Under the pieces are notes generated by a model that was given only the letters and a program-made list of their open reading frames with translations, was not told the DNA's origin and made no database searches. A program made the position numbers and the translations under genes. From Opitutales bacterium (GTDB taxonomy: Bacteria > Verrucomicrobiota > Verrucomicrobiia > Opitutales > Coraliomargaritaceae), in NCBI GenBank assembly GCA_018607135.1, contig JABBCA010000082.1, positions 62,001-126,000 of the forward strand: DNA of 64,000 bases. Reading direction: 5' to 3'. Of the stretch, positions 291-58,359 are shown in pieces; position 1 is the stretch's first letter; the number at the start of each line of letters is the position of its first letter.

Positions 291-313
291 GAAAGATTCA
301 AATCGTCGATCGA

Positions 314-1759
<1,446 letters not shown>

Positions 1760-1798
1760 AGTTAAAAGTAATTAGAAAATAGTATTCAGAAGTTAGCT

Positions 1799-2962: not shown

Positions 2963-3009
2963 AAGACCTGCAGTATTCCGCGCATTAATTAAAATGCAAG
3001 TCCTACATC

Positions 3010-3035
3010 AACATATCATGATAATTTGATATGTT
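3010..3035. promoter_or_regulatory. Inverted repeat between regulator and metK
   Basis: A perfect 9-bp inverted repeat, AACATATCA-N8-TGATATGTT, occupies 3010-3018 and 3027-3035. It starts one base past the regulator stop and ends about 48 bp before the metK ATG. It is AT-rich with no T run, so an operator is more likely than a terminator. Binding by the adjacent regulator is inference. Confidence 0.5.
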
Positions 3036-3036
3036 A

Positions 3037-3396: not shown

Positions 3397-3560
3397 GTTC
3401 TCAATTACAGAACCCCACTCAAGCGATGTAAATCATGAAAATAATAGCGCACATAGCCACGAATTTGCCTCAAATTTGGTCTCAATAACAAACGAGTTAA
3501 ACTTGGCTCGACATCTGCAGTGTAAGTGACACACCTCCTAAAACGATTCTAGCGCACTAT

Positions 3561-9157: not shown

Positions 9158-10183
<1,026 letters not shown>

Positions 10184-38561: not shown

Positions 38562-39596
38562 CTACGCTGGAGCCGCGGTCGTTTCCTTGATCAATAACTT
38601 AGCTTTAAACTTGCGAGACTGTGGGGCTTGACTGACACCGTCTTTTTGCCCCAGGCGGTTCAGCAATAATTCCGCAGTTGCATCGGCCAGCTCCTGTAAA
38701 GGTTGTGCGATAGTCGTCAACCGGCGTGGCAGACACTCTCCGAACGGGACATTATCAATACCAATCACAGAAAGATCTTCTGGAATACTTAAGCCCCTTT
38801 CATTCGCAGCTCGCATAGCTCCAATCGCAGATAGATCATTCATCGCGATTAACGCAGTTGGACGCTCATCCCCACAATAATCTAAAAAGTCTCCGAAAGC
38901 TTCTCGGGCACTTTGTAACTTGTGTGCACAATGAATAAAACTGTTTTGGTCCTCGGGAATACCGCGCTCTTTAAGCATCTGATCAAAAATCATCGGGCGA
39001 TCTCCAGCATCTTGACCTTTTGCCAATGCACATAAAAACGCAAAGCGCTTGTGGCCTAAATCAAGTAAGTGCTCCACTGCAGCAGTAATGCCCTCAGAGA
39101 AGTCCATCTCTACCGCATCAAACGGAAAGGGCTCAACGGATGGACCCGTCATCGCCACTACATGCTTCGCTGTTTTTTGTGCCCGCTTGAGAAACTCCAT
39201 GTGACTATCCAAATCACTCACAAAATACGTCACCGCGTCAATCTGGCGGTCTAGAATTGAATCTAAGCAGTGCTTTTCATATGCCACATCCGTGCGTGAG
39301 TGCTCTAAAATCAAATCGTAACCACTCTCTCGCATCCGCTTAGCCAACAAGTCTGCAAAAGTCGTATAGACTGGATTGTGCAAATCAGGAATCACCAAGC
39401 CGACAGTCTTAAAGCTGCCCAGGCGCAAGCCCAAGGCCGCACGACTGGGCTTATATCCCAATTCTTCGGCAGCTTTAAATACACGAGCAGTCGTTTCTTT
39501 CGAGGCCCACGAATTCGGGCGACGATTCAAAATCGTCGATGCGGTATTCGTCGCCACGCCCGCTCGCTCCGCGACATCTTTTAATCGTGCTCTCAT
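38562..39596 (-). CDS. LacI-family transcriptional regulator
   Basis: A 344-residue repressor. The N-terminal helix-turn-helix and hinge (residues 1-60; LKDVAERAGVATNTASTILN, KPSRAALGLRLG) are followed by a periplasmic-binding-protein-like sensor (VGLVIPDLHNPVYTTFADLL, ALIAMNDLSAIGAMRAANERGL, VIGIDNVPFGECLPRRLTTI). It is divergent from the transporter/sulfatase/rhamnosidase operon. The near-palindrome AAGAAACAATTCTT, found twice in that intergenic region and again before other polysaccharide genes, is its probable operator. An oligosaccharide or sugar from the polysaccharide is the likely inducer. Confidence 0.93.
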   Translation of the reverse strand: MRARLKDVAERAGVATNTASTILNRRPNSWASKETTARVFKAAEELGYKPSRAALGLRLGSFKTVGLVIPDLHNPVYTTFADLLAKRMRESGYDLILEHSRTDVAYEKHCLDSILDRQIDAVTYFVSDLDSHMEFLKRAQKTAKHVVAMTGPSVEPFPFDAVEMDFSEGITAAVEHLLDLGHKRFAFLCALAKGQDAGDRPMIFDQMLKERGIPEDQNSFIHCAHKLQSAREAFGDFLDYCGDERPTALIAMNDLSAIGAMRAANERGLSIPEDLSVIGIDNVPFGECLPRRLTTIAQPLQELADATAELLLNRLGQKDGVSQAPQSRKFKAKLLIKETTAAPA

Positions 39597-39780: not shown

Positions 39781-39794
39781 AAGAAACAATTCTT
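39781..39794. promoter_or_regulatory. LacI operator candidate O1 (transporter operon)
   Basis: AAGAAACAATTCTT, arms AAGAA/TTCTT around ACAA. Its 3' end overlaps a TTGACA hexamer at 39793-39798. A second copy in inverse orientation lies 26 bp downstream. Confidence 0.65.
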
Positions 39795-39798
39795 GACA
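39793..39798 (+). promoter_or_regulatory. -35 hexamer TTGACA of the transporter operon
   Basis: A perfect TTGACA sits between the two operator copies. No good -10 hexamer is found at standard spacing; TATTGT at 39820-39825 is the closest but is 21 bp away. Confidence 0.4.
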
Positions 39799-39806
39799 CC
39801 CACAAT

Positions 39807-39820
39807 AAGAATTGTTTCTT
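39807..39820. promoter_or_regulatory. LacI operator candidate O2 (transporter operon)
   Basis: AAGAATTGTTTCTT, the reverse complement of O1, flanked by T and A to make a 16-bp near-palindrome. Binding here would cover the expected -10 region. Confidence 0.65.
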
Positions 39821-39987
39821 ATTGTAAATCGTTCTTAATGGTGATGCATCCTCCAGTCACTGTATCAAACAATCACTATATCAACTCATCGATCTCATAG
39901 CTTCGAACACAGAAACTCATCTGGGTTTACTTACGCAGAGCAACATCGCGATGAAACACCATAAACAATTTTAGGGTATAGGTTAAA

Positions 39988-40015
39988 GGGGCAGTCTTAG
40001 GGCTGCCCTTTTTTT
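39988..40015 (+). terminator. Intrinsic terminator in the leader of the transporter operon
   Basis: GGGCAG (39988-39993) pairs with CTGCCC (40003-40008) and is followed by seven T. It lies about 170 bp downstream of the operator-controlled promoter and 83 bp before the transporter ATG. Transcripts from that promoter must therefore read through it, or end as a short RNA. Confidence 0.8.
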
Positions 40016-40097
40016 ACCCAATCACCAAGCAGTTCTACGTTGTCTGCAGCACGAAATAAACATAGCTTATGCAACCCCATCGACTCACGACCCCACT

Positions 40098-41534
40098 ATG
40101 AGTGTAAATCACATCCCCCACATTCCGGGACAAAAAAAAGTCCCACTGCTGACTAAAATTAAATGGGGATTTGGTGGGCTCGCCGATAACTTCATGTTCA
40201 ATACACTGACTGCGTTGGGCACCTTGGTCTATGTTGAGCATTTTAAGTTTACACCTGAACTCGCTGGTCTGGCATTGGCGATGCCACGGCTAATTGATGC
40301 GTTTACAGACCCGTGGATTGGGAACCTTTCTGATAATTGCAAATCCAGATTTGGCCGACGGCGTCCGTTCATGTTTATTGGCGTATTGCTATGCGCCTTA
40401 TTATTACCGCTACTCTGGACGCCCTTCGGCTTAGATACAGTAAGCTACGTTTGGTATCAAAACATCCCCTTTCTATATGTCTGCACTGTGGGGAGTTTAC
40501 TGGCAGTCGCCTACACTCTTTTCGTCGTGCCATACACAGCTCTGGGCTTTGAGTTAACCCCTGACTATGATGAGCGAACGCGTGTAATACGATGGCGTAT
40601 GTTAATTGGACTGTTGGGGTCATTGGCAGCCGCATGGCTGTTCAGCATAGCCGCAGCTGATTACTTTCCTAATTTTGGTGTCGGCGCCTTTTGGGTCACC
40701 GTGGGAGTAGCAGGAGTTGTTTTAGTCTCTGGCTTAATTCCGACTTTTGGTTGTAAAGAGAACCTGGAAATTACCGAACAAGAGCCAATTAAGCTTCTAC
40801 CGGCGATCATGTATACGATGACCAATCGTCCCTTCTTGATTTTGTTCATTACCTACGTCGTCATCATTACTGCACTCTTTTCTGCGCAGAGCATTGGTCC
40901 CTTGATTATGCTGCACTACGTATTTGACGGTAGTCCCAAAGCGGTAGGCCTATTCATGGGAAGCCTAGGCACTCTAGCTGTAGCGCTGTCGTATGTGAGT
41001 ATGTTCTTTATTGGCTATCTTTCTACGCTGTTTAATAAGCGAGCGGCTATGATGATCGGACTTGGTTTTGTTCTATTTGGAACGATCGCTAACTATTTCG
41101 CAATCGACCCACGCTGGCCTTGGGCGATGTATGTCGCTGGTGCGATTACATTTATTGGTATGCAAGGTTGCTGGCTAATGGTCGATTCAATGGTCGCAGA
41201 TGTATGCGACTATGATGAATTGCACACAGGGCGTCGCCGTGAAGGAATGTTTAGCTCTGTAAAGGGCTTTGCACTCAAAGCTGCACAAGGCCTAACTTTC
41301 GGCTTAGGTGGCTACATGGCAACCGCAGCAGGATACGACCCACATGTCGTGAATGCCGCCGGCCTCGATGAAGGGATCGCAATCAAAATGAAAGCACTTT
41401 TAATCGGTTTCCAAGCAGTAGGTCTGAGTCTTGCGATCTTCCTAATGTGGTTCTACCCGATCAGCCGTAAACGCGCAGAGGAGACACAGCGCTTACTTGA
41501 AGCAAAGGCTAAAGCATCTGAGGAGAGTGAGTAG
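40098..41534 (+). CDS. GPH-family MFS sugar:cation symporter
   Basis: A 478-residue inner-membrane transporter with about 12 predicted helices. Features of the glycoside-pentoside-hexuronide group are the start [16 protein letters not shown], the loop [22 protein letters not shown] (helix 2-3 region), [21 protein letters not shown] and, in the second half, [23 protein letters not shown]. It should import rhamnose or short oligosaccharides released by the neighbouring enzymes. It is the first gene of an operon with a sulfatase and a rhamnosidase, whose reading frames overlap end to start. Confidence 0.92.
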
Positions 41535-42894
41535 CCAACGATTCAAAATCGGTGCACTTTGTCTGTGCATTGCAATGAATTACGTGGTCGCGTCCGCAGC
41601 AGACGAACCACTCAACATCGTCGTTCTCTTTGCGGATGACTGGCGACATGATACACTCGGAATCGAAGGGCACACAGTTGTGCAGACTCCGGAACTGGAT
41701 CGCCTCTCAAAACAAGGCATACGATTTACGCAGAACTATGTAACGACCTCCATCTGCGGTGTCAGTCGTGCTTCTTTATTCACTGGGCAATGGATGGCGC
41801 GACACAAAAATCGTGGCTTTGGACCTTGGGCCACGCCTTGGACTGAGACCTATCCAGGCTTACTCAGAGCCAACGGATACCATGTCGGCCATGTTGGAAA
41901 ATGGCACAACGGCAAGTTTCCCAAAGAGCGTTTTGATTTTGGGCGCGTATATGGTAGCACCCACTGGCTAGACCAAGCTGATGGATCTAAAATACATGTC
42001 ACGCGGAAGAACGAGCTCGATGCTTTAGAGTTCCTCGAAACACGCCCCACAGAGCAACCCTTTTGCCTGACAGTTGCCTTCTTTGCCACACATGCTGAGG
42101 ATCGAAATCCAAAGCAATTTTTGCCCCAGCCCAGCAGTGCTATGCTCTACGCAGATATCGAAATCCCAGTGCCCAAAACCGCGACCGAAACTGCCTATCG
42201 CGCCCTTCCCGAGTTTTTACAGAATTCTAAAAATGAGGGACGTATACGCTGGCACTGGCGATTCGACACTCCAGAGAAATATCAGCGCATGATGAAGAAC
42301 TACTACCGCCTCGCAACAGAAGTCGACGCGACTTGTGGGCGCATCATTGAGGAACTGAAGGTTCAAGGTGTATTAGAAAATACGCTCATCATTTTCACTA
42401 CCGACAACGGATATTACCATGGCGAACACGGCTTGGCAGATAAATGGTATCCACATAGTGAAAGCATCCGCGTGCCTTTGATTATATATGATCCTCGCAT
42501 GCAATCCACACAAGCTGGACAGACGCGCGACGCCATGACACTGAACGTCGATGTGGCACCGACGATACTTAAAGCCGCCATGCTGTTGCCCCCAAAAAAC
42601 ATGCAAGGATCTGATATCGCATCACTCTATCTAGATGAAAATCCCCAAGAATGGCGGAACGATTTTTATTACGAGCACCCTACTATTTCTAACATTGATC
42701 GTATCCCATCTTCTGAAGCCCTAGTAAACAAAGAGTGGAAATATTTCTACTGGCCCGACTACGAACACGAACAGCTGTTTCACCTGACAGAAGATCCGCA
42801 CGAGACCAAGGACTTAGCGCAACTACCTAAGTTTCTTGATCAACTGAACCTAATGCGCGCTCGCTTCAAACAACTCAAAGAAGCTGCACAATGA
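41527..42894 (+). CDS. Secreted sulfatase (S1 formylglycine type), CGVSR motif
   Basis: A type I sulfatase predicted to remove sulfate esters from the polysaccharide. Starting at the GTG at 41527 gives a clean signal peptide ([19 protein letters not shown] then ADEP) and 455 residues; a TTG at 41497 with a GAGGAG upstream is the alternative. The formylglycine motif is C77-G-V-S-R81, followed by LFTGQ, with Val at the position usually occupied by Pro or Ala. Metal-binding Asp residues are in [12 protein letters not shown] and [18 protein letters not shown]. It overlaps the transporter stop and, by 4 bp, the rhamnosidase start. Confidence 0.9.
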
Positions 42895-44645
42895 AACCGA
42901 TATTCTACAAGCTGACTTTCATTGTATCGCTCCTCACGAGCGCAGCCCAAGCCGCACCAGTCGAACTGTCCGACGAATTACCTAAAACGGTGACACGCAT
43001 AGACTCGACAACGTGGCTCCTCGATTACGGACGTGTCGCATTCGGCAACTTACGAATCGAACCAACAGAGAGTTCGCAAGATTCTGTAACGATTCATTTC
43101 GGCGAAGCTTTTGCCAATGGAAGGATAGACCGCAATCCACCTGGCAGCGTCCGCTATGCAGTCGTTGATACGCCGCTGGATCATTCGATTTCTCAAGTCA
43201 TCGCACCCACACCCGACAAACGAAACACCACACATCTCAAAGCAGTGCGCTTACCCCAAGAATGGGGAGTCATCCTGCCCTTTCGTTGGATCGAGATTGA
43301 AGCTTACTCGGGCGAGCTAAACCCTAAAGCATTCGTCAGGCAATCAGCTTTCCCGAGCACATGGGATGATCAGGCTGCAGACTTCGAATGCTCTGACCCG
43401 ATGCTCAATCGTATCTGGGAACTATGCCGCTACTCGATAAAGGCCACAAGTTTTGCTGGCGTCTATGTCGACGGGGATCGTGAACGCATTCCATACGAAG
43501 CCGACGCCTACCTCAACCAGCTGAGCGGCTACTACACTGACAATGACATTGAAATGGCACGGGACACATTCGATCTATTGATGAAACAACCCACATGGCC
43601 GACTGAATGGGCACCACATATGATCTTCATCGCCAAAGCAGACTGGATGCATACGGGCGACCTCGACTGGCTAACACCGCGCTATGAATCATTAAAAACA
43701 AAATTGCTACTCGAGCGTGTAGGCGAAGACGGATTGATCACGAGCAACAAACGTCAAATCAAACGCGACGATATCGTCGATTGGCCACCAGTCGAACGCG
43801 ATGGGTTTGTGTTCACAAAGCTCAATTCAGTGGTCAACGCATTCCACCTCAAAGCACTTTCTGACATGACCGAACTCGCAGTTGCGTGCGGAAAGGTCGA
43901 CGAGGCTCAACACTACCATCAAATATATAAAAGCACCAAAAATGCTTATCAAAAAACGTTCTTCAATCCGAAGACAGGTCTCTATGTAGATGGCGTCGGC
44001 ACCGAGCATTCTTCCTTTCATGCAAACGTGTTTCCACTTGCCTTCGATCTCGTCCCAGAAGCCAACAAGCGAAGTATTATCGAGTGGATACAATCCCGAG
44101 GTATGGCTTGTTCAGTTTACGCGGCTCAATACCTCATGGAAGCACTGTTTGAAAATGGCGCTGACGACTATGCCGTCGAATTGATGCTCACTGACACCGA
44201 CCGCAGCTGGCGTCATATGGTCGAAAGTGGCACCACTATCACGTGGGAAGCATGGGATCAAAAATACAAGCCCAACCAAGACTGGAATCACGCATGGGGA
44301 GCTGCACCTGCAAACATACTGCCGCGCTACGTGCTTGGTGTCCAATCAATGGCTCCGAACTGGGAGACCGTTCAGATACACCCGCGCATCGCAAACCTCA
44401 ATCATGCCAAAGGCAAAGTGCCGACACCGCACGGTCCCATTCTAATAGAATGGGACCGTGAACCTCAGTTTTCCATGACGATCCATCTACCCAAAAAAAT
44501 GAATACAGTCGTTCGCGTTCCGCGACTTAGCGACACCAAGGCAATCTACATAAATGGAGAGCCCGTCACATCGCGATTGGAAAGAGACTACTTTCACTTG
44601 GAACCCAAGTTACTCGAGCTAACAACGTTCGTCGAAGTCAGATGA
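42891..44645 (+). CDS. Secreted alpha-L-rhamnosidase (GH78-like)
   Basis: A 584-residue glycosidase with a signal peptide ([17 protein letters not shown]). An N-terminal beta domain (25-150) precedes the alpha/alpha-barrel. The GH78-type acid motif is [18 protein letters not shown] (193-210), and [11 protein letters not shown] with WNHAWGAAP (about 430-460) supplies the second catalytic acid region. It is shorter than multi-domain GH78 enzymes (often over 900 residues), lacking extra carbohydrate-binding modules. It overlaps the sulfatase stop codon (ATGA) and closes the LacI-controlled operon. Rhamnose release from a desulfated chain is the expected activity. Confidence 0.9.
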
Positions 44646-44894
44646 ACAAAACTTTCAGGTCAGCCTAACAACTCATGTGCTTGAAGAATGCTTTAACAAA
44701 CACGTCATGGAGGGCTCCGCTAATTAAAACGTAGGGCCACTGCATGCAGAATGACCGTAAACAAGACGACTCATCACGAACTGCACACTACTTAAAATTG
44801 GTGAGAGCAGACACAAACCTGCGTGAACATCATTAGCCAAGATACTGAAGTCAGGTAAAGGTGCTCGACTTGCGAAGCACTGCCCCTCGAAGAC
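44646..44894. other. Intergenic region with no recognised feature
   Basis: About 250 bp between the rhamnosidase stop and the terminator. All frames are broken by stops and none gives a recognisable protein remnant. I see no repeat or RNA structure. Confidence 0.5.
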
Positions 44895-44927
44895 AAAAAA
44901 AAGACAGCCTAAAGACTGCCTTTTTTT
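44895..44927. terminator. Bidirectional terminator
   Basis: AAAAAAAGACAG pairs with CTGCCTTTTTTT (one A-C mismatch) around the loop CCTAAAGA. T runs on both strands serve the rhamnosidase operon (plus) and the PEP-CTERM gene (minus). Confidence 0.8.
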
Positions 44928-44945
44928 GTAATCACATGACTCGTA

Positions 44946-45608
44946 TTACTGACGACGCTTGATGGCAACAAAGCCGAGCGCAATCAAGCCTCCGAGAAGC
45001 GCATAGGTGCCATGCTCAGGAACAGAATTAAACGCTATGTAGTCAACCTCTACCCAATTACCCGCTTGTGCAGGACTGCCTATCGGATCGAATCGACTCG
45101 ATGTGATTTCCGCATTCGCAGCGAAGCTGTTATCCACAAGATAGGTGGCCAAATCTACAGTAAATAGTGACCATCCATCAGCCTGCGTCACCTCAGTATA
45201 ATAAGTCGTGTTAAACAGACCCAAATTTTGGAACCCCCCGACACTCAATGTCACGGAAAGCAATGTAGATGCGTAATCAATCGCCTGTGGTGCACCAGGA
45301 GTGCCAGTATTGTCAGCTAATTGACGTATCCGAAATTCAATGGTGTCCCAAGTTTCGCCACCACCAAGTGTCAGTGTGCCTGGGTTCAAAGAAATTTGAG
45401 CGTCGAAAGGGCTCGAACTATTCAAACGACCTTGTAGCACTCCTTCGCTTGTGGATGCAGTCGCTTGTCCAAATGTTTGAAATTGGCCGTTTTGCGTAAC
45501 GCCGTCTGTGGTCGTGTCGAAAGTATATTCTAAAACGGTGCCCGCTGACACCGAATAGCTGAGCCCAGCTATGAGTAAAGAAGAGACAAAAATTTGGGGG
45601 ATATTCAT
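44946..45608 (-). CDS. PEP-CTERM-sorted secreted protein
   Basis: A 220-residue exported protein with a signal peptide (IFVSSLLIAGLSYSVSA) and a C-terminal sorting signal: VPEHGTYALLGG, a hydrophobic helix (LIALGFVAI) and KRRQ. It uses PEHG instead of the usual PEP. The mature part is a beta-sandwich-like domain ending in the RFDP...VEVDYIAF pattern shared with two other secreted proteins of this window. Exosortase would cleave and process the tail; no exosortase gene is here. The function is unknown, perhaps surface carbohydrate binding. Confidence 0.88.
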   Translation of the reverse strand: MNIPQIFVSSLLIAGLSYSVSAGTVLEYTFDTTTDGVTQNGQFQTFGQATASTSEGVLQGRLNSSSPFDAQISLNPGTLTLGGGETWDTIEFRIRQLADNTGTPGAPQAIDYASTLLSVTLSVGGFQNLGLFNTTYYTEVTQADGWSLFTVDLATYLVDNSFAANAEITSSRFDPIGSPAQAGNWVEVDYIAFNSVPEHGTYALLGGLIALGFVAIKRRQ

Positions 45609-45739
45609 AATCTATTGGGATACTAATGAGATGTTTTGTATAACTAAAAGTAGGCTAATTTTGTATGTGCTGACAAGAGAGAAAGAACTCATTTCTTCAA
45701 ACAAAGCTAAACCAGAATCCTGCACTGCCCCTAGCTGAA

Positions 45740-48700
45740 CTATGGAAATAAAATTTCCACGCGATAAAAGGCTTCAGTAAATACTTGGGAATCAGTTAAT
45801 GTAACCGTTCCATCTGAGATCAATGCGTCTGCGGTATCTACTGGCGTCCAAGTCAAATCTTTCAAGTCTAGCTTACGCCCGAGTGTGTAAGCGCGCCCTG
45901 CTCTGCCGGAAATTTGCACTTCAAATACCGAAGCTGAAAGTATCTGACTCGTAAACATCACACGGTCTCCAGAATCGTCGGGATCAGTGCCTGCGATATA
46001 CTCGTCATAATTACTCTGACCGTCCGCATCTCCATCGGCATTTGCATCTGCGGCGTCCAAGGCTTCAAGCCCATTCGCAATTTCGTATGTATCAGGGATT
46101 TGATCGCCATCTGCATCACCACTCGTCATGGCCACCGCATCAATCTCTATACTTGCATTAGCCACATTGATCGGGTCGAGACGTAGCGAAGTGATCGTTT
46201 CACCGGTCCATGTTCCCGAAGCTGCCAATGGAACACGAACGGTCTGCCAATCGCCACTCGCCACGATCGCTACTTGAGCACTACGTGCCGCACTGAAAGC
46301 TGAAGCAGACGATGTGGTCCAAAAAATTTGAAGATTGCCCGCGTTGTTTGAACGTATGCGAACTAGCGCGGCGTCCACTGTATTAGAATCGATATCTAAG
46401 GTCTCGTTTTTCATTCGAGGGTCCGTCGTCGAACTATCGAGGTGATAACTGCCACCGAGCACATAGTCATTCTCGATGCCTCCAATGACCTCCCAGCCAT
46501 TGGCATTTCCGTTGAAGTCAAAACCAGTAATCGGTGCTCGATCCGGAGCGGTGGAACCATCTGTGATTCGAATATAATCGATTTCAAAAGCGGTGCCCGA
46601 AGTCCCAGAACCATTTACAGGATCTAGACGAAGCGCTGTAATGACTTCGTCATCCCACTCCACAGTTCCAGCCAGTGCAAAAGTCAAAGTCTGAAACATT
46701 CCAGCGCCACTGTAAGCCTTTGTCATTAATCTAGAAGCAGTAAATCCTGCCCCATCGACACGAGACCAATAGAGTTGAACGTCTGTATTGATCGCAGATT
46801 TCATTCGCACCTCCACTTGCGTGTAGCTATTGCCATTCAGTTCCAATCCAGTCTTTGTGATCTGTGGATCGTCACTATTACTAATCCCTGAAAGCACTCC
46901 CGATGCCACGACTGGGCTATCGATATTATTCGTATTCCAGCCGTCAAAATCACCATTGGTATTGAATTCTGTTGCCGCGTAGAACTGCTGAATATCCTCA
47001 TCCAGTATGAAGGTCGCTGCATTGCCATCATCCACAATAAGGCGCGAGCGATAAGTCCCCGAAGCGCTCACACTCGAACGCTGCACTTCTAGATGATCTT
47101 GGTCGTCTTTCTTGAAAGACAGCACTTCGCCGCCCGTTTCTTGATCAATGCAAATCCAAGGATCACGCGCACCTTCGACCGATGGGATATATTCAATAAG
47201 TCCCGACGAATCTGCTCGAGCGTCGAATTGAATCGCCGATGTTTTTGCGAAACCGACCTGCGATAAACTAATGTTATCAAATACTCCGGCAACCGTCGTA
47301 GCGACATCACCACTCGTGACAAACATCCCGACACGGGACACACCCGGAAGTAAGACGTCTGCTGTCGCGCCGATCTGATTGAAATTGATACCATCCGTGG
47401 ACACGTAGGCCGAGATGGAATTGCCACGACGTTCCAATTTAAAATACGCAGGCGTGGTCACACCCGGTGTTTCTTCGATCGTGAGGTCTCCCCACTTGCC
47501 ACCTTCGCTGCGAATCAATAAATACGCTTTATTGTCAGGCGCTAAGCCAATGAATGCCGCCGCGTCTGTAGAACCAGGTCCGCCACGAACCATCAAGCCA
47601 CCACGCGTGGGACCTGTCGCATTGCCGAGACTGCTCATCCGGGCAACGATATCAAAATCGCCCGCAACACCCTTCCACACGAAATGTCCTTGGTCATAAG
47701 TTTCGCCTTCGTCCGTGCCAAGACCTGAGCCCGCCCCATTCACCGTAACCACACCTGTAGATTCGCTAAAGGAGCCATCCGTCGACAAATCGCCGAGGTC
47801 GTTACCGACCCAGTTTCCAGTCACCGCATACGGAGTCACTACAGTATTGGGTGCAAGAGGCGTATAAACTTCGATGAATAAATCGGTGTTGCCACTGGTA
47901 ACTCCATCCGTAGCCACAGCGCGTAGTTGATAAGACCCTGGCGCTTCAAATGAGATGTCTGTATTTGCGGATGTGTAGTCTGAGAATGTAACGGCAGCAG
48001 GGCCTGATTCCACAAACCACTCTACTGAAGTTGCACCTCCCGTTAAGAGACCACGTGTCTGCAAACTCTGACCTGCTGGAATCTGTAGATGATTAGTCCA
48101 AGGCCTAGTGAATTGAACTGCTGGACTGCCGCTCACATAGCGCGCTTTCATCGCAGTGAGAATGCGATCGATTTCGTGCAATTGAAGTTCACCACGATAC
48201 ATGCGGATCTCTGCAACATCTCCGTTGAAGCCGCCGACACCATTGCTCTGACTATTGCCGAGGAGCAAAGAAACCGCGCCGCGCTCAACATTGTAGTGAT
48301 TCACACCCTGCCCGAGTCGCACCTGATCGATCGAATCGACGAAGAGCTTCATATTTTGATCGTCGCCCGCATTATCATGTGAAATTTCCGAACCATCCCA
48401 TGTGGCGACAACCACGTGCCACTGGTTATCTGAAAGTCCCGCATTGCCCACTCCACCGCGAAAAATTCCAGTGACGGCACTGTCTTGTGCTTCGAGGCTC
48501 AATCCGAAACGTTCATTCTGTGAATACGAAAGTCCCCAAGCCAAATCACCCGAACTCGCATCCAAAAGACCTGTCGTGCCAAATGGTGTCGTCTGTAAGC
48601 CTTCACCATTGGCGCCCGTCCGCAAGACCATGACGACGCTCATTGCGGTCGCTTCTGCCAATGGATTTTCAGCCGACGATAAGCCGAGTGACTCACTGCC

Positions 48701-49702: not shown

Positions 49703-49818
49703 ATTAGGGTGCAGCTTAGGGGTTGAAGTAGATTCTGGTATATGACTATAAGAATCGAATCTTACAAGGTTTATATCAGGATCACAACTAGAGTTGAGAG
49801 AAACTTTACATTTCTACT

Positions 49819-52515
49819 TTAAGGCAAGATATCAAAGCTTACTCCACCCTGATGCGGAATACCCTCATGGTCATCACGATGCGGCCTGGCCACTTCCTCT
49901 GTCTCACGCTGAGCCGAAGCTTCGCTGATACGGACATTGGATGGCACAGAGAGACTCACCACAAGATCATCTGCCGGTAGTTGAGCACTTAGCACGAAAC
50001 GATACTGCTTCACCTTTTCACCAACGGTAATTGCTTGTTCGTAACCTGGAAGCATGCCGCCGAGTTCATGATAAACATTAAATTGTAGCGTCGCCTGCCC
50101 CATAGTGGATGAAGCCATAAAAGTGAGCACAATTTGTTCACCCCCTTCGATCGATTTGACTGGGCTCAGTTCTAGCACATTGCCAACACCAATGCGACTA
50201 GTCATGCCTACTTCAATAGGTTTGACACTGACTGCGGTGCGGAAAGGCACAGCATACACACTTCCCTCCCAACTGCCGTCTTCCTTTAAACTCTTGATCA
50301 ATCCGCGCTTGTCGGCACCCGTGCCAAGCGATGCTATATTGAAGCGCCGCTCCCCATTCGAAAATGCTTTGATCTGCCCGACACCGCCTGTGACCACTGT
50401 TCTTGGTGTATCATGCTTTTCCAATAAATTACGAATCGCTTGAGTCATCGTTTCATTGAAGCCCTTGTCATGCGACTCTGGCCATTTCATCGCATGGATC
50501 GCATTCCCACCCTTTTCCCAAACATGCACCAACTGTTCATTGGCTAGCTTCTGGTCGGAAGTCAGCGCTTGATACTCGCCCATAACCATTGAATCAAAAC
50601 CCGAAGAATAGCCCGCCTTCAATGCGTAAGCTGGCTTCTTAAACCAAACCGAGTAGCGCGTAAACCCAAAGCCCACGCCTGCAGTCAGGGCATAATCAAT
50701 CGGCGTGATACGCGTCATCCGCTCACTAAACAGATCGAGAGTGCCGATTGCATAACGATCCGGAATTTGATGCGATTTAACGATCTCTGCTGGAAAGCCC
50801 GCAAGCAACGCCTGCGTAAAAGTATCTGCCAAGCGACGATTCACTACGTAGCGATTGAAGTAATACCAATCGTTGAAAAATTTATGATCCGCATCGTATC
50901 GATCCCAGCTCCCACGCCCTGTGTCACGAGGCGCATCAAATTTCAAAACCGAAGGTCCATTCCGCGCTGCCAAGGCTTGAGACAGGTCTGCACCATAAAG
51001 ATGCGTCAAGTATTCCTCAAATCCACGAATCATCGCGGGGTTATAATCACCGACAGACTGATCCTCACGAATCGCAATCTCGTGCTCATGATTCGGTTCC
51101 ACCGAAATAACGCGTTCGGGGTGCTCGCGATGTGCTTCACTTAGGGCAAATAAGAATCCACGCAATGGTAGTTCATAGAGACGATCCAGCGCCGGTAAAC
51201 CGAATGCATAAGTCGACCCCACGAAACTATCCTTAGCTCCAAACTCGCCATAGTAAGACACATTATTGAGCCTTGAAAGCGCTAGGTATTTAGGCAGCCC
51301 CGTGGAAGTATCTTTCACCGATTTCCACGCATCAAAACGATCATTGAATTGACGGTGCGTGAAACACGGCTCCCAAAGTGAACGACCCTGATTAATTAGA
51401 GGCTGCTTCAGCCGCCCCAGACCTGAGCGTGCGAGGCGCATGCCCTGCTCCCATTTTGCAGGATCTTCGCTACTAAATAAAGATGGGTTTTTATACGCTG
51501 GCGAAGAGGCGTCGGCACGCAAATGAGCATATTTAGTAAACTTAATATATTCTCCTTCATCCTCTTGCGTGAATCCAAATTTATCTACGGTGATCCAAAA
51601 CTCATTTTCAAAACGACCGATGTTTTGCCTTTCAATAACTACGCCCGGAGCCAGCGTAAACACTTCAGATAAGTCATCATTCGCAATCGTAGCTAGATAG
51701 CGTTGATCACCAAACGCACTGCGAAAGACACCATCCACCGCATCCTCAAAACTGAACTGTAGAAAGGAATGCGCCCCACCTTCGGGATCGAACTGCAGCA
51801 ATGCTCCAGAGCCTTTCTTATACAGCTCTAAATACGACTGACCATTAAGACGATACGATTCGAGTTGAACGCGTCCACTATCCGTGGCGACAAACTTCAT
51901 GCCCTTTAGAGCGCGGCCATTCGCACGATACAGCAAAACCCCACTGGCTTGCCCTTTATTTTGATTCGCGGGGGCAACGGCTATTTCATCCCCGGGGTGC
52001 TCCGATAAAAAGTCGCCAACCGCGATCACATAAGGCGGAGGCATTTTCGTTGGTGTCCGAACCACCGCCCGAAGACCACCATGGAGATCATACACCTGTA
52101 GCAGCTTAACCGTTTTATCTACGATAGGTGCAGTCACGATAAACGCATCGCCATCTTCATCTCGACCCGCCCCCACCGATACGCCACCAACTACAGATTC
52201 TGGATACGCTAAAAATTGCGCACTCGCGATTCCGTTCTCATTCAACACGCGCACAAAGGTCAAATTACTAGAGTGCTCACCTTGACCTGCTACGATTAAC
52301 GGCGCAAGTGGCACTGGGCTTTCCACTGCAACTCGCTCACGAGCCACCCGAGTCGCAAGGTCTAAGTGCGGGTCCAACACCGCAGTCACAGTGGCTGCAG
52401 TATCCGACTCAAAGACTGAAGAAATTCGACCTGAATCCGCACACAAACCATGCGCAAAACCAAGCAATAAAAGACAGCACTGAATCTGTCTGACGTGCAA
52501 GTAAACAGACATCAA
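49819..52515 (-). CDS. Unrecognised large secreted protein, possible glycoside hydrolase
   Basis: An 898-residue protein with a signal peptide (IQCCLLLLGFAHGLCA). Residues about 30-330 contain repeated short beta segments (VGVSVGAGRDEDGDAFIV-like, VIAVGDFLSEHPGDEIAVA) resembling FG-GAP/propeller blades. The middle (about 370-700) is rich in aromatic and acidic residues (VEPNHEHEIAI, FFNDWYYFNRYVVNRRLADTF, SSGFDSMVMGEYQAL, AMKWPESHDKGF) in the style of a TIM-barrel glycosidase. A beta domain ends it. I cannot name a family. It starts 11 bp after the GH106-like gene, so it is probably co-transcribed with it and should act on the same glycan. Confidence 0.6.
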   Translation of the reverse strand: MMSVYLHVRQIQCCLLLLGFAHGLCADSGRISSVFESDTAATVTAVLDPHLDLATRVARERVAVESPVPLAPLIVAGQGEHSSNLTFVRVLNENGIASAQFLAYPESVVGGVSVGAGRDEDGDAFIVTAPIVDKTVKLLQVYDLHGGLRAVVRTPTKMPPPYVIAVGDFLSEHPGDEIAVAPANQNKGQASGVLLYRANGRALKGMKFVATDSGRVQLESYRLNGQSYLELYKKGSGALLQFDPEGGAHSFLQFSFEDAVDGVFRSAFGDQRYLATIANDDLSEVFTLAPGVVIERQNIGRFENEFWITVDKFGFTQEDEGEYIKFTKYAHLRADASSPAYKNPSLFSSEDPAKWEQGMRLARSGLGRLKQPLINQGRSLWEPCFTHRQFNDRFDAWKSVKDTSTGLPKYLALSRLNNVSYYGEFGAKDSFVGSTYAFGLPALDRLYELPLRGFLFALSEAHREHPERVISVEPNHEHEIAIREDQSVGDYNPAMIRGFEEYLTHLYGADLSQALAARNGPSVLKFDAPRDTGRGSWDRYDADHKFFNDWYYFNRYVVNRRLADTFTQALLAGFPAEIVKSHQIPDRYAIGTLDLFSERMTRITPIDYALTAGVGFGFTRYSVWFKKPAYALKAGYSSGFDSMVMGEYQALTSDQKLANEQLVHVWEKGGNAIHAMKWPESHDKGFNETMTQAIRNLLEKHDTPRTVVTGGVGQIKAFSNGERRFNIASLGTGADKRGLIKSLKEDGSWEGSVYAVPFRTAVSVKPIEVGMTSRIGVGNVLELSPVKSIEGGEQIVLTFMASSTMGQATLQFNVYHELGGMLPGYEQAITVGEKVKQYRFVLSAQLPADDLVVSLSVPSNVRISEASAQRETEEVARPHRDDHEGIPHQGGVSFDILP

Positions 52516-52525
52516 TGCACCCTCC

Positions 52526-55500
52526 TTAGAAAGACAAAACTGGAGCCTCTATTAAACCAGATGGGAAAAATAAGTAATCTTCAGTGTAGCACTCGCCCAC
52601 GGTTCGAAAGCTATCCGGCGCCGTCATAATCGATTCTTTAGGTATACGGTGAAACGGGCCAAAGAGGTTCTGACGCGTTAAACAGACCTCAATACGCAAT
52701 AAGGGCTCATTCGAAAGAGCAGTCAGCTCTGCAGTGTATGGGGGAAACGCATACAGCTGCTCAGTATCTCCACAAACGACAGTTGCACACGCACCTTCAA
52801 AATTAGGCAACTGACAGATAAATGCTTGATCGCGGGCAATGTCTTTAAGCTTGGTTAGATAACTGACTCGGCCTGAATAAAACGGCAGTCCTTGATCGAC
52901 CAAATCACCAATCTCTAGAAAAATTGGCATATGTGTCAGCACAAAGCCACTTGCGCGCCGCTCGACACCAAAATCACCAAACAAATAAAGTGCCTCTAAA
53001 TCGGTATCACTTTTAAGTTTCGTCCGTAGTCTTAAAAAGTTCATTCCCACTTGTAGCGCTTGAGTTGGCAATTGAGTGCGCTTCAAAGCAATATCAACCA
53101 TCCAATCGAGAGGATGATTCAGTGGAATGGCTTGATCGTTTAAAAACAATTCCCAGCGCTCGGGTTGCTCGAGCACTAAGTCCAATTCTGGAGGTATGAC
53201 ATCCACTTCAAACCGATACTCGAGCTCAAAGTCTGGCCCAACATCCGCCTCGCCGTGACTACACCAAGGTTGAACCATCGTGCCTGTGCGTAATGGCCAC
53301 CCAGATGCCTCACGAACCTCTTTATCAATTCGCAAAATATCTTCCTCAGCTCTCCAAGCCCCGTCAGCGATACGATATCGAGCTCGATCCAAAACCAAAG
53401 CGTTCGGCTCGCTTAATTCATAATCGAAGACCCCATTGAGCATGACGGATTGAGTTGCACTCGACTTCATAGCCACAGCGCTACCCTGAATTGAAGTCGA
53501 ATTCACACGCACACGAAATACGTGCTCCTGCAATGGCTCAAAATGTAAGGGCCACTGTAAGCCATCCGCGCTTGCACGTGCATCGACTGGCGTCATCGAA
53601 CCATCACGACAGTTTAAGCAATCCACATGACCCACTGCAGCGAGATTCACATAGACGTTTTGAATCATAGCCTCGGTAGTATTGACGAGCGCCACGAGCA
53701 CCTCGCCATTTTCCACACGACGCACATGACTCATTACACCTGGAACCCCCTCATTACGATTGAGCTTCAAAAGTTGTTCACTCGCACTGCGAATCGCCAT
53801 AACGATCGACGACTGACTCCAGCCCGAGCTACCAATGACTCCTGCATAAGCTAAGGGTGCTTCACTCAGTTCGGCATCCACATAGGCCGGCACTGGACCC
53901 GCGAATACAACCGAACCGCCCGCAGCGGTGAATGCCTTCAAAAGCTTTAATGTCGATCCACGCATCGTGTCCATTCCACCAAGGACAATCGACCGATAAC
54001 GCATCTCCCCCACTCGGAAAAAGACCTCATCGTCGATAACCTCGATCTCTCCAAGACGATCCATTTGCTCTTCGTCTCCGTAATCAAAATCAATCTGCGC
54101 ATCCATCAACCACCGATACAAAGTCGCAAACTTTTCTTCGATCGCGTCGATCTGCGCAGAGTCAGAACCCAACCATTTCGACCAACCCAAATGGAACTGA
54201 GCCCAAAGCGATTCCCCAGGATGCACTACCAGCACATCACAATCCGGCTCGCCCTGCTTGAGCACATGATTCACTCGTGCGAAATAGTCTTCCACATATT
54301 TGTAATCAGAATACCATGCAGACTGGTGCAAGATACTCGCAGGATAATCGCGCTTCGATTCCCCTGCCATCGAATACCACGACAAATGGTGACAACGTAG
54401 ATTGATTCCTTGGAATGCTTGCCAATCACCGATCCGCTTGTGGCCATCGAAGCCCATATCCCAGCCCGTGCAGCCGTAGAGTTCAGACAAGGCGTAAGGC
54501 TTACCCAACTGACGCGCAGTAGACACCACTTGTTTCGCGACCCAGAATGATTCACAGCGCTTCGAGAGCACATCGATCCCAGGATAGCTCATCGTTTCGT
54601 AATAGCGAAACAGTGAACCCACTGGCACTACTTGTGCCGCCAGTGAATCTTCGTGCAGCACATGGCCAGTAAGTAATAGATCGTTCGACTCACACCAATC
54701 CGCGCAAGGCTTGGCCCAATTTTGAATGAACAAGCGCTGTAACAGCTCGACATACTGCCACTTTAATTTCGACAGCGGCTGCCCTTTATATTGAAAGATG
54801 AGTTCGGGTAATCGCCCTCGAAGGGACTGACCAAACTGAGCCTCAAACTCGTCAAATAATGACTCGGTGTAAGGTATTGAATGCGAGGGCTTGGATGCAC
54901 CCGGCTGCTGCACCGCATCGCACAAAATAAAACCACGGTGTGGCTCATCCGTAAAGATACCTTGAATCGATTTACCAAAATGATGCCCACAATGCTCACG
55001 ATACTTCTCATGCGTGGATTCGATAAACGCATTCGTCGCATCACGACTGAGTGTATCTAAATACGCCCCACCATTATAAAAACTATTGGATGGATGCACT
55101 TCCCGGTAAAACACCAAGACCTGCTTACCTTGTGGACATTCTGCAAGCGCTCCACGTTCAATGGGCTCATACGCAAACAAATGCAGCGCCTTCAACTCAA
55201 CGATATGTGCCTCGATGAAATCGGCCTCTTCGGGCCACGCAATGCGCTCGCCCGCACCATACTCACGTAGAACAATCGAGCGCATCCGATGCTGCTCGTC
55301 AGTGGTAACGATACCACCCGCAGTGCCACTGGGCCAACGATCCTCGTCGTAAAGCCATCCTTCGAGTCCTGTTTCCGCACACTTTTCCGCACAAGAATTA
55401 ATCAACTCAAACCACTCTTCACCCAGATACTCCGTTTGCAAACCAGTGCGTGAATGCATAAAAACACCCCCCATGCCCATTTGATCCACCACGTCGATCT

Positions 55501-55660
55501 GTCTGAGTAACTCAGATTCTTCGAGTTGCCCATTCCAAGACCAGAAGGGTTTTCCGCGCAGTGCTGCGCCTGGAGCACGAAATTCACTTAGAAACAGATT
55601 TTCTGCGGCCTCCGTGTTTATATTTTTTGGGGATTGAGTTGGATTGGGGATACTGCCCAT
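52526..55660 (-). CDS. GH106-like alpha-L-rhamnosidase, apparently cytoplasmic
   Basis: A 1044-residue protein of the GH106/related rhamnosidase type. Recognisable segments are KPFWSWNGQLEESELLRQID (37-56), MGMGGVFMHSRTGLQTEYLG, GWLYDEDRWPSGTAGG, GIFTDEPHRG (a likely catalytic acid), GHVLHEDSL and SELYGCTGWDMGFDGHKRIGDWQ. A C-terminal galactose-binding-like region (about 770-1000) follows. There is no signal peptide from the only plausible ATG. It may therefore act on imported oligosaccharides, unlike the secreted sulfatase divergent from it. A LacI-type operator lies immediately upstream of its start codon. Confidence 0.85.
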   Translation of the reverse strand: MGSIPNPTQSPKNINTEAAENLFLSEFRAPGAALRGKPFWSWNGQLEESELLRQIDVVDQMGMGGVFMHSRTGLQTEYLGEEWFELINSCAEKCAETGLEGWLYDEDRWPSGTAGGIVTTDEQHRMRSIVLREYGAGERIAWPEEADFIEAHIVELKALHLFAYEPIERGALAECPQGKQVLVFYREVHPSNSFYNGGAYLDTLSRDATNAFIESTHEKYREHCGHHFGKSIQGIFTDEPHRGFILCDAVQQPGASKPSHSIPYTESLFDEFEAQFGQSLRGRLPELIFQYKGQPLSKLKWQYVELLQRLFIQNWAKPCADWCESNDLLLTGHVLHEDSLAAQVVPVGSLFRYYETMSYPGIDVLSKRCESFWVAKQVVSTARQLGKPYALSELYGCTGWDMGFDGHKRIGDWQAFQGINLRCHHLSWYSMAGESKRDYPASILHQSAWYSDYKYVEDYFARVNHVLKQGEPDCDVLVVHPGESLWAQFHLGWSKWLGSDSAQIDAIEEKFATLYRWLMDAQIDFDYGDEEQMDRLGEIEVIDDEVFFRVGEMRYRSIVLGGMDTMRGSTLKLLKAFTAAGGSVVFAGPVPAYVDAELSEAPLAYAGVIGSSGWSQSSIVMAIRSASEQLLKLNRNEGVPGVMSHVRRVENGEVLVALVNTTEAMIQNVYVNLAAVGHVDCLNCRDGSMTPVDARASADGLQWPLHFEPLQEHVFRVRVNSTSIQGSAVAMKSSATQSVMLNGVFDYELSEPNALVLDRARYRIADGAWRAEEDILRIDKEVREASGWPLRTGTMVQPWCSHGEADVGPDFELEYRFEVDVIPPELDLVLEQPERWELFLNDQAIPLNHPLDWMVDIALKRTQLPTQALQVGMNFLRLRTKLKSDTDLEALYLFGDFGVERRASGFVLTHMPIFLEIGDLVDQGLPFYSGRVSYLTKLKDIARDQAFICQLPNFEGACATVVCGDTEQLYAFPPYTAELTALSNEPLLRIEVCLTRQNLFGPFHRIPKESIMTAPDSFRTVGECYTEDYLFFPSGLIEAPVLSF

Positions 55661-55661
55661 T

Positions 55662-55675
55662 AAGAAACAATTCTT
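55662..55675. promoter_or_regulatory. LacI operator candidate O3 (GH106/sulfatase)
   Basis: AAGAAACAATTCTT, identical to O1. It lies one base upstream of the GH106 ATG and 38 bp before the divergent sulfatase ATG. A TTGACC hexamer on the minus strand is at 55695-55690. Confidence 0.65.
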
Positions 55676-55713
55676 ATTGTCTTTTCATAGGTCAAGTGAA
55701 TAGTGCTTACACG

Positions 55714-57345
55714 ATGAGCTCTTTACCCCGCCGATTTTCCATGCAATCCGTTCGTCTGTGCCTGCTTCCGGCGCTAAGTTTAGGGATTCTTGTCAGCACC
55801 ACTGACGCGACAGATAAACAAGTCGCTCCGTCTCGCCCCGACATCATCTATATATTGGCAGACGATCTCGGCTTTTCAGATCTCGGCTGTTTTGGAAGTG
55901 AGATTTCCACGCCGCACTTGGATCGCCTCGCCACCGAGGGGATTCGAATGAACCAATTTTACAATGCCTCGAAGTGCGAACCCACCCGAGCCTCTATCAT
56001 GTCAGGGCACTACTGGCCCGTCACAGGACTCGGCGTGCAGCGCGGTGCGACCATCGGCGAGGTCATGCGCACTGCAGGCTATGCGACCTTCGCACTAGGT
56101 AAATGGCACCTAAATGCCAACCCCACCAACCGAGGCTTCGACCGATTCTTTGGTCATCTGAGTGGAGCCAGCGCTTTTTTCCCACCCATCTCGGACAGCT
56201 TTCGCCTAGATAAAAAGCCATTCAAAACCAAGGACCCCGAGTTCTACGTCACCGACGCGGTCACCGACTACGCCCTCCAATTCATCAAAGAGTCCAAGGC
56301 CGCCAACCCAGAGAAGCCTTACTTTATGTATTTGGCCTACAATTCTCCACATAACCCGCTCCAAGCACCTCGAGCCGACATCGAAAAATATAAGGGCACC
56401 TACTTAAAAGGCTGGGAGGCCGTTCGCCAAGAGCGCTATGAGCGCATGCAGGCAATCGGAATCCTCGGCGCCGAAGCCAAACTGTCTGCGCACCCCAGCA
56501 ATTTGCCGCGCTGGGACAGCCTCAGCACCGCCCAGAAGCAACTTGAAGATTTGCGCATGGCTGTTTACGCAGGCATGATTGATAATTTGGATCAAAACGT
56601 CGGACGACTCCTCAGCAGTCTGACACAACATGGGCTCGACGACAACCTCCTCGTCATCTTCATGAGCGACAACGGCGGCTCACCCTACTCGCGCACCGAC
56701 GCAGTGATGCTTGAGAAAAACACCCTGCCGGGAGATCCAGGTTCGAATTGGGAAATCGGCATGGGCTGGGCAAACGTCAGCAATACCCCATTCCGACTTT
56801 ATAAACGCAACCAACACGAAGGCGGCATCAGCACGCCCTTCATCGCATGGTGGCCAAGACACATCACGAATCAGAACGAGATCAACTCGCAACCCGCGCA
56901 TATCATTGACCTGCTCCCCACTTTCATGGAACTCGCAGGTGCCGACTATAAAGATGCAGGCAAAGGTAAAGCACTGCCCCCACTCCCCGGCAAAAGCTTA
57001 CTACCCATTTTCAAGGGAGAAACACGCGAACCGCACGCATCGCTCTACTTTCAGCTGTTTGATCACCGTGCCATTCGCTCAGGCGACTGGAAACTCACCG
57101 CAGTCGATGGCAAAGCTTGGGAGCTCTACAATCTCGCGCAGGATCGGAGCGAAACCACAGATCTGAGCAGCGAGTATCCTGAACGCGTCCAACAACTCTC
57201 CGAAAATTGGGAAACTTGGTGGAGCGAAGCCAACGGTAAAGCCTATAACCCAAAGCGTAACCCCACTCCCGCCGCACACCTCCGCGACGACCGCAGCGGC
57301 GGAGCCTTTTATACCCCCACCGCCCTACCGAACCACTTAAAATGA
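55714..57345 (+). CDS. Secreted sulfatase (S1), CEPTR motif
   Basis: A 543-residue arylsulfatase-like enzyme. The ATG at 55714 (or 55741) gives a signal peptide (RLCLLPALSLGILVSTTDA); the upstream open frame overlaps the GH106 gene and is not credible coding. The catalytic motif is C88-E-P-T-R92, then SIMSGH. Metal-binding Asp residues are in ILADDLGFSDLGCFG and MSDNGGSPYS. GKWHLNANPTNRGFD and NSPHNPLQAP are family regions. It resembles the truncated sulfatase at the right end of the window more than the other two. Confidence 0.93.
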   Translation: MSSLPRRFSMQSVRLCLLPALSLGILVSTTDATDKQVAPSRPDIIYILADDLGFSDLGCFGSEISTPHLDRLATEGIRMNQFYNASKCEPTRASIMSGHYWPVTGLGVQRGATIGEVMRTAGYATFALGKWHLNANPTNRGFDRFFGHLSGASAFFPPISDSFRLDKKPFKTKDPEFYVTDAVTDYALQFIKESKAANPEKPYFMYLAYNSPHNPLQAPRADIEKYKGTYLKGWEAVRQERYERMQAIGILGAEAKLSAHPSNLPRWDSLSTAQKQLEDLRMAVYAGMIDNLDQNVGRLLSSLTQHGLDDNLLVIFMSDNGGSPYSRTDAVMLEKNTLPGDPGSNWEIGMGWANVSNTPFRLYKRNQHEGGISTPFIAWWPRHITNQNEINSQPAHIIDLLPTFMELAGADYKDAGKGKALPPLPGKSLLPIFKGETREPHASLYFQLFDHRAIRSGDWKLTAVDGKAWELYNLAQDRSETTDLSSEYPERVQQLSENWETWWSEANGKAYNPKRNPTPAAHLRDDRSGGAFYTPTALPNHLK

Positions 57346-57394
57346 GATTAAATCACGTCATCTCTGCGCAAGAAACCATTAGTTTGGCTACTTT

Positions 57395-57408
57395 AAGAAA
57401 CAATTCAT
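57395..57408. promoter_or_regulatory. LacI operator candidate O4 (PEP-CTERM gene)
   Basis: AAGAAACAATTCAT, one mismatch to O1 in the second arm. It lies 48 bp upstream of O5 in the promoter region of the PEP-CTERM gene. Confidence 0.5.
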
Positions 57409-57427
57409 ATTTCGGCGCTAAGAAAAC

Positions 57428-57433
57428 TTGACA
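57428..57433 (+). promoter_or_regulatory. -35 hexamer TTGACA of the PEP-CTERM gene
   Basis: A perfect TTGACA sits 9 bp before operator O5, the same arrangement as at the transporter operon, where the gap is 8 bp. Confidence 0.4.
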
Positions 57434-57442
57434 AGAGTTCAT

Positions 57443-57456
57443 AAGAATAGTTTCTT
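57443..57456. promoter_or_regulatory. LacI operator candidate O5 (PEP-CTERM gene)
   Basis: AAGAATAGTTTCTT keeps both arms (AAGAA/TTCTT) and has the orientation of O2 downstream of TTGACA. Confidence 0.55.
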
Positions 57457-57505
57457 ACGTATCTAAACCTGCAATTTAGCACCCAAATAATAACAAATCC
57501 AATAT

Positions 57506-58222
57506 ATGAATTATAAACAATACCTACCTCTTGTAGCACTCTCACTGACGAGTGTCGTTGTTTCTCAGGCGGTCACGCTAGTAGAATTCAACTTTGCTGG
57601 CTCTGGAGCCGTTAGCACCTACGCCACCGGTGATAGTCAATTTAGCACAATCAACAGCGCTGTCACTTTCGATGACGCCACGAATGCTCTCTCTGCTATT
57701 AATTCTTGGAATTACGATGGAACTGGCACTGCTGCAGTAAGAACAGATCTCATCAACAGCGCAGCCTTTGGTTCTACATCTCGCTTTGATGTTGATCTCG
57801 GATTTGCCGCAACAGGATTTTCTTACACGATTACTTCTGTAGAAATATCAGTTCGCGCTAACAACGACGACGGTTCCACCTTCGCATTTGGTTATCGCGA
57901 CACTGGAGGCTCAGAACAAGTCGTCGGCGCTGAACTTGTTTCCACACAATCGGGACTGGATCCACTTGGACTCTACTCTATTGATCTCAGCGGGGAAGGC
58001 CTCACAGCGACTGTCAGTTCTACTAGCTGGAACACTTCCGGAACAGGCGAACTACGCTTCTTGTTTTACGACGCTACAACAGGTGAGACTGCAAACGACA
58101 ACTTCCAAGTTCACTCGATCCGCATCATCGGTGACGTGACAGCTGTCCCAGAGCCCTCATCCTATGCACTCATCGCTGGCATGCTAGGTCTTGCTTTTGT
58201 TGCAATGCGTCGCCGCTCTTAA
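57506..58222 (+). CDS. PEP-CTERM-sorted secreted protein
   Basis: A 238-residue exported protein. It has a signal peptide (YLPLVALSLTSVVVSQAV), a beta-rich mature domain with many Ser/Thr/Gly residues, and a canonical PEP-CTERM tail (VPEPSSYALIAGMLGLAFVAMRRRS). The mature domain resembles carbohydrate-binding or structural sandwich domains, but no catalytic motif is visible. It is flanked by polysaccharide-degradation genes and preceded by two LacI-type operators, so it is probably induced with them as a surface or matrix protein. It ends at a strong terminator. Confidence 0.9.
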   Translation: MNYKQYLPLVALSLTSVVVSQAVTLVEFNFAGSGAVSTYATGDSQFSTINSAVTFDDATNALSAINSWNYDGTGTAAVRTDLINSAAFGSTSRFDVDLGFAATGFSYTITSVEISVRANNDDGSTFAFGYRDTGGSEQVVGAELVSTQSGLDPLGLYSIDLSGEGLTATVSSTSWNTSGTGELRFLFYDATTGETANDNFQVHSIRIIGDVTAVPEPSSYALIAGMLGLAFVAMRRRS

Positions 58223-58239
58223 AAAAAACTGATTTTACT

Positions 58240-58271
58240 AAACGGGGTTTCAAACGAAGCCCCGTTTTTTT
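58240..58271 (+). terminator. Rho-independent terminator of the PEP-CTERM gene
   Basis: AAACGGGGTTTC pairs with GAAGCCCCGTTT around AAAC, followed by a T run. It is a strong intrinsic terminator 17 bp after the stop. Confidence 0.95.
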
Positions 58272-58345
58272 GTGTCTAAAAAAATACAACGAACAAACTT
58301 TCAATCAATGACTTCTACCAGCTAACAGACATTGCCACCCACCAT

Positions 58346-58359
58346 AAGAAACAATTCCT
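58346..58359. promoter_or_regulatory. LacI operator candidate O6 (calcium-repeat sulfatase)
   Basis: AAGAAACAATTCCT, one mismatch to O1, ending 13 bp before the sulfatase ATG at 58373. Confidence 0.5.

Follow-up and report, generated by a model that had tools for sequence, protein, structure and literature searches.

A palindromic candidate operator of a LacI-type regulator marks a conserved rhamnoside gene set in an Opitutales bacterium

LacI-family regulators of rhamnose and rhamnoside use have been described as RhaR in Actinomycetales, RhiR in Rhizobiales and Erwinia, and RhmR in Chloroflexus, in a study that does not mention Verrucomicrobiota (Rodionova et al., 2013, PMC3870299). Operators of this family are mostly even palindromes in which a central CG is usual though not universal, their spacing is constant within an orthologous group and rarely flexible, and autoregulation is seen in 72% of the family (PMC4052901). 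Here we analyzed a 64,000-nucleotide stretch of an Opitutales bacterium (the window; positions 62001-126000 of contig C43 in a 3.53-Mb genome) in which a palindrome with the consensus TAAGAAWNNWTTCTTA recurs upstream of genes for sulfatases, a sugar transporter and rhamnosidase-like proteins. This palindrome is very likely the operator of the LacI-type regulator encoded at 38562-39596, which would bind it as a dimer and repress the genes listed below until a rhamnose-containing sugar is imported. The window system shares with RhaR, RhiR and RhmR the protein family, palindromic operators ahead of genes for the uptake and degradation of rhamnosides, and prediction by genome comparison. It differs in that those regulators come from other phyla and use 20-bp palindromes of four other consensus types, a comparison made by published description (PMC3870299). 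In the open-access literature searched we found no described LacI operator in Verrucomicrobiota and no description of this circuit, although circuits of such kind are common in bacteria. LacI-family rhamnoside regulons are known from other phyla, and what is unusual here is a change in operator spacing between clades.

All genome-wide counts given here come from pattern searches. When AAGAAACAATTCTT was searched with at most one mismatch there were nine matches in the genome, six of which, all within an 18.6-kb stretch, are the sites named in the original prediction, while the reversed control pattern had no match genome-wide. All six were re-found at their coordinates and strands and lie upstream of predicted starts, in agreement with the promoter locations that had been proposed, and the reported absence of the motif from the bacterial microcompartment (BMC) and rha promoters was borne out by the lack of any site with one mismatch or fewer there. 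The first pair does adjoin the lacI gene as had been noted, and one further site had been missed. The candidate operators are as follows.

39781-39794, + strand: AAGAAACAATTCTT, between lacI and the transporter operon, found in the one-mismatch genome search
39807-39820, - strand: inverted copy of the preceding site, also between lacI and the transporter operon; with its flanks palindromic as CAATAAGAA-ACAA-TTCTTATTG
49750-49763, - strand: the additional site, TAAGAATCGAATCTTA with flanks, 48 bp upstream of a trypsin/LamG gene
55662-55675, + strand: AAGAAACAATTCTT, between a GH106-like gene and the sulfatase gene at 55714
57395-57408, + strand: AAGAAACAATTCAT, found in the one-mismatch genome search
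57443-57456, - strand: AAGAAACTATTCTT, found in the one-mismatch genome search
58346-58359, + strand: AAGAAACAATTCCT, 14 nt 5' of the start codon of the calcium-repeat sulfatase gene

Other window matches with at most one mismatch to AAGAA-N4-TTCTT are that at 49750 and those at 9374, 24027, 28975 and 34112, the latter all within long open reading frames (ORFs). A partial, degenerate site, AAGAAACCATTAGT, was also seen at 57370-57383, 25 bp ahead of site 57395. The consensus TAAGAAWNNWTTCTTA was obtained by symmetrizing 40 sites that had been selected by the motif, so that its inner six conserved positions are partly set by this selection and the central pair and flanking T/A are free of it.

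These repeats could in principle have arisen by chance or from the base composition of A/T-rich intergenic DNA, and the loose form of the motif gives this explanation some room. Specifically, a genome-wide scan with AAGAA-N4-TTCTT, the check suggested by the original prediction, proved too weak to be informative: with up to two mismatches this pattern shows only mild enrichment in the window (56 matches versus 38 expected), and AAGAAWNNWTTCTT with one mismatch occurs 68 times genome-wide versus 57 times in the control, which is near control. We consequently discarded the loose pattern as evidence by itself. The specific motif, however, is clustered, intergenic and kept ahead of orthologous genes in six genomes, and since this conservation contradicts a chance origin we give that explanation practically no credence. 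Matches on three other contigs of this genome were set aside as background, as the one on C93 fails the refined motif filter, the one on C105 is at least 2.3 kb from the nearest predicted starts and the one on C60 is within an ORF. Exact sites with a spacer of 2 or 3 bp are at or below control in this genome, indicating that a spacer of 4 is the form in use.

The conservation that carries this argument is found in five other genomes, where TAAGAAWNNWTTCTTA is present ahead of orthologues of the window targets, again in intergenic DNA. The genes concerned, with their Pfam matches and the relatives (G numbers) in which the motif precedes the orthologue, are listed here.

38562-39596, - strand: lacI-type regulator of 344 amino acids (aa), the proposed binder; PF00356 at 47.6 bits and PF13377 at 102.6 bits, both above cut-off
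40098-41534, + strand: MFS_2 sugar transporter, first gene of its operon; PF13347; motif 50-91 bp upstream of the G031, G130 and G001 orthologues
41497-42894, + strand: sulfatase of the transporter operon; PF00884 at 160 bits
42891-44645, + strand: GH78-type alpha-L-rhamnosidase of the transporter operon; PF17389 at 212 bits
45740-49702, - strand: trypsin/LamG protein, predicted target of site 49750; PF00089; motif upstream in G130 and G001
52526-55660, - strand: GH106-like protein, a divergent one; PF17132 at 27.8 bits, under the gathering cut-off of 29; motif upstream in G031, G001 and G042
55714-57345, + strand: sulfatase; PF00884 at 198 bits on the longer ORF 55561-57345; motif upstream in G031, G004 and G130, with two sites in G004
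57506-58222, + strand: PEP-CTERM surface protein; PF07589; motif upstream in G001 and G004
58373-61210, + strand: sulfatase with calcium-type repeats; PF00884 at 113 bits; the G031 orthologue (75%) has AAGAATCGATTCTT 22 bp upstream

The operators therefore stand ahead of rhamnoside transport and degradation genes, namely the MFS/sulfatase/GH78 operon and the GH106-like gene. The motif is present at the MFS transporter gene, at lacI or at both in G004, G031, G130 and G001 and at a second copy on contig C48 of the window's own genome, and the operator pair (25-26 bp apart) also recurs 5' of the G004 orthologue. Six operator pairs have a separation of 14 to 48 bp. Furthermore, the site pair in the lacI upstream region, together with the sites found before many of its homologues, is the arrangement expected of autoregulation.

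The targets originally proposed were all recovered, and the gene set is larger than had been claimed, as it takes in the trypsin/LamG gene, DUF5722 genes in this genome and prepilin-like genes in relatives. One recurrent further target is a DUF5722 gene, separated by the motif from a divergent gene whose product, of unknown family, is about 1,200 aa long. In this genome a family scan identified this arrangement on C8 (L121, where the contig ends within the DUF5722 gene) and at C43:140806 (L037). The same divergent layout on C11 (L122), with a 579-aa partner, is known from arrangement only, and similar layouts in G031, G004 and G130 were judged from gene order alone. The regulon would thereby extend to DUF5722 genes elsewhere in the genome. 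In three relatives the motif is 14-36 bp upstream of genes for proteins of 226-231 aa with a prepilin-type start (L113:10183-10863, L115:10937-11632 and L117:13015-13698), this start having been scanned in G031 and assigned in G004 and G130 by sequence similarity; apparently these encode a secretion or pilus part under sugar control.

Two additional loci of this genome carry the motif. On C82 (L034) sites at 9964 and 9986, 22 bp apart, precede a gene for a 374-aa protein that has no Pfam or NCBIfam match. On C48 (L028), positions 1-3696, the site AAGAATCTATTCTT separates the divergent genes of a second LacI (80% identical) and a second MFS transporter (74%). The contig is 3.7 kb long and represents either a genuine paralogue or a stray piece of the assembly.

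We next consider which protein binds these sites. The regulator encoded beside the first pair has the N-terminal LacI-type helix-turn-helix and the periplasmic-binding-type sensor domain of the LacI/GalR family, and its closest sequence matches in PDB are CcpA (1rzr; 3e-39 over residues 3-321) and PurR (1jft). It is like these two proteins in fold and domain order, and its 4-bp spacer makes the site an even palindrome of 16 bp that, like cre and PurR boxes, has AA at -4/-3. It is unlike them in its half-site, TAAGAA, in the mostly absent central CG, and in two extra residues that the alignment with CcpA places directly after the recognition helix.

Two other regulator genes are in the same rhamnose cluster as lacI.

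37672-38559: AraC regulator
28377-29147: DeoR regulator

Because of this proximity the palindrome might be bound by the AraC or DeoR protein, or by an unlinked factor, with LacI a bystander. We addressed this by counting exact TAAGAAWNNWTTCTT matches in 178 genomes from the same order or closer, an orthologue being defined as a LacI of at least 58% identity. The six genomes that have the LacI orthologue contain 13, 4, 8, 7, 5 and 7 matches (mean 7.3), and the remaining 172 together contain 80 (mean 0.47, at most 4 per genome); a site with both flanking bases is counted once per strand so that matches exceed sites. The Mann-Whitney p value of 3e-7 for this difference overstates independence since the genomes are related. 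AraC homologues are present in 25 genomes without this LacI at about 0.5 motif matches each, which is background, and no AraC homologue was found in G130, a motif-bearing genome; on this co-occurrence pattern AraC was rejected as the binder. In addition, rhamnose regulators of the AraC and DeoR types recognize direct repeats rather than palindromes (PMC3870299), and in distant genomes the half-sites are again found ahead of the lacI homologues themselves. Binding by another regulator is very unlikely on these results, in which co-occurrence was compared for LacI and AraC. The computed results support the palindrome as a real cis-element that marks a conserved gene set, with the adjacent LacI as by far the best candidate binder, because the motif is kept before orthologous genes, co-occurs with LacI and not with AraC, and is present at distant lacI promoters.

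Analysis of those distant promoters was based on a scan of species genomes that located LacI homologues at 34 loci, almost all of them in Verrucomicrobiota. The recognition helix and following loop are nearly invariant among these homologues, although the scan patterns included a peptide from the post-helix loop and so favor members with that loop. Directly upstream of lacI, 23 of 44 homologues have at least 11 of 12 half-site bases versus 1.8% of Markov controls, one of the 23 having a doubtful spacer of 1 (L085), a lone case that was left out of the spacer classes. Near the homologue loci the counts of TARGAA-Nk-TTCYTA, with one end base free, are 0, 1, 7, 5, 6, 0, 0, 0 and 1 as k rises from 0 to 8; the window has a 16-bp even palindrome, and distant homologues show odd or shorter spacing. 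Four genomes (G399, G329, G528 and G527) contain a single exact site of the spacing in question, and it lies before lacI. On a maximum-likelihood tree the spacer length of 2, 3 or 4 bp clusters, with 11 changes relative to a shuffled mean of 21.1 and a value as low in 0 of 200 shuffles, a figure that is helped by near-copies among the homologues. The hinge tracks the spacer, as PSRAALGLRLG-like hinges go with 4, PSKTARALRSGRYH with 3 and PNKTARALRSGRFH with 2; the exceptions are L092/L093 (PSKTARALQSGRYH with a spacer of 4, far upstream) and L096. Some homologues have rhamnose-related neighbors, including rhaA and GH78 (L112), a kinase like the rhamnulokinase of the window (L103, L109), GH78 (L102) and GH106 (L083, L084), and many others have no neighbor similar to any window protein.

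Among these loci, L112 of Roseibacillus persicicus has a spacer-4 site, TAAGAATCCTTTCCTC, before rhaA (11115) and a spacer-2 site before lacI, and this genome may use both spacings. Homologues with the hinge NRAAVAL (L095, L103 at -79 from lacI and L133 at -115) carry palindromes of the type ATGAA-A/TCGT-TTC, centered on CG, which may be a related form of the operator.

Taken as a group, these homologues probably represent a Verrucomicrobiota-wide LacI subfamily, with a near-invariant helix, a two-residue insertion and the signature NTASTILN-RRPNSWASKET, that keeps the TARGAA half-site and has shifted its spacing among 4, 3 and 2 bp by lineage, broadly together with the hinge-helix sequence; the half-site code would then be conserved while dimer geometry evolves. 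CcpA at cre-var sites and CytR are also LacI-family proteins with variable half-site spacing, but their variation is large and occurs within one genome (PMC5263246); in the subfamily the spacing is 2, 3 or 4 bp and for the most part the same throughout a clade.

Several observations weigh against assigning the palindrome to the window LacI. Only 4 of the 40 sites have CG as their central pair, unlike most LacI operators (PMC4052901). The second LacI on C48 (80% identical) may share the sites. Of the regulators in the cluster, the co-occurrence comparison covered LacI and AraC. Finally, 21 of 44 homologues have no strong half-site pair before lacI, including the LacI of G001 at a contig end and the second copy of G004.

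In regards to the mode of action, the LacI dimer would bind the TAAGAAWNNWTTCTTA sites and, by analogy with other local LacI regulators, repress its own gene and the transporter/sulfatase/rhamnosidase operon as well as the GH106-like/sulfatase pair, the calcium-repeat sulfatase, the trypsin/LamG gene and the PEP-CTERM gene. Repression by a dimer fits the paired operators, the sites beside TTGACA boxes and the sites close to start codons. One TTGACA (39793-39798) overlaps the end of site 39781 and is 8 nt ahead of site 39807, and a second (57428-57433) is 9 nt ahead of site 57443, so that two sites are indeed shortly 3' of this box; the placement claimed to suit repression therefore held, while the repressor mode itself is not established by it. 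LacI could instead bind these sites as an activator or dual regulator, given that site-to-start distances vary from about 14 to 317 bp and that the promoter scan called no full sigma-70 promoter at the sites or at either box. Several sites nevertheless lie on, or almost against, a start codon or TTGACA box, and local LacI regulators of sugar use mostly act as repressors; we therefore consider an activating or dual role unlikely. A terminator-like hairpin followed by a T run, GGGCAGTCTTAGGGCTGCCC-TTTTTTT at 39988-40016 (+ strand; -22 kcal/mol with flanks, z -4.1), was also observed between the operator pair and the transporter start. It is not listed by the consensus scan and is a possible attenuator or end of a short transcript.

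Repression and its release by an imported rhamnose-containing sugar are predicted from the behavior of the family, and the inducer class from the targets and neighboring genes. The claim of a LacI regulon was upheld by conservation and co-occurrence, but sulfated rhamnan as its substrate was not established, because the GH106 Pfam match is under the gathering score and no polymer was identified. At best the substrate is a rhamnose-containing sulfated polysaccharide, and other such polymers fit as well as sulfated rhamnan. The rhaA and BMC genes of monosaccharide catabolism, which have no site here, are probably under the neighboring AraC or DeoR regulator.

Marine Verrucomicrobiota have been characterized as specialists that feed on sulfated methyl pentoses (PMC8857213). 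For this group the present analysis yields a testable operator and regulon for the use of sulfated rhamnose-containing polysaccharides. The link to polysaccharide use that it suggests for PEP-CTERM proteins, DUF5722 genes and, in relatives, prepilin-like proteins would be a first functional lead for them. The clade-wise change in half-site spacing, with an almost unchanged recognition helix, may likewise serve as a natural experiment on dimer geometry in the LacI family.

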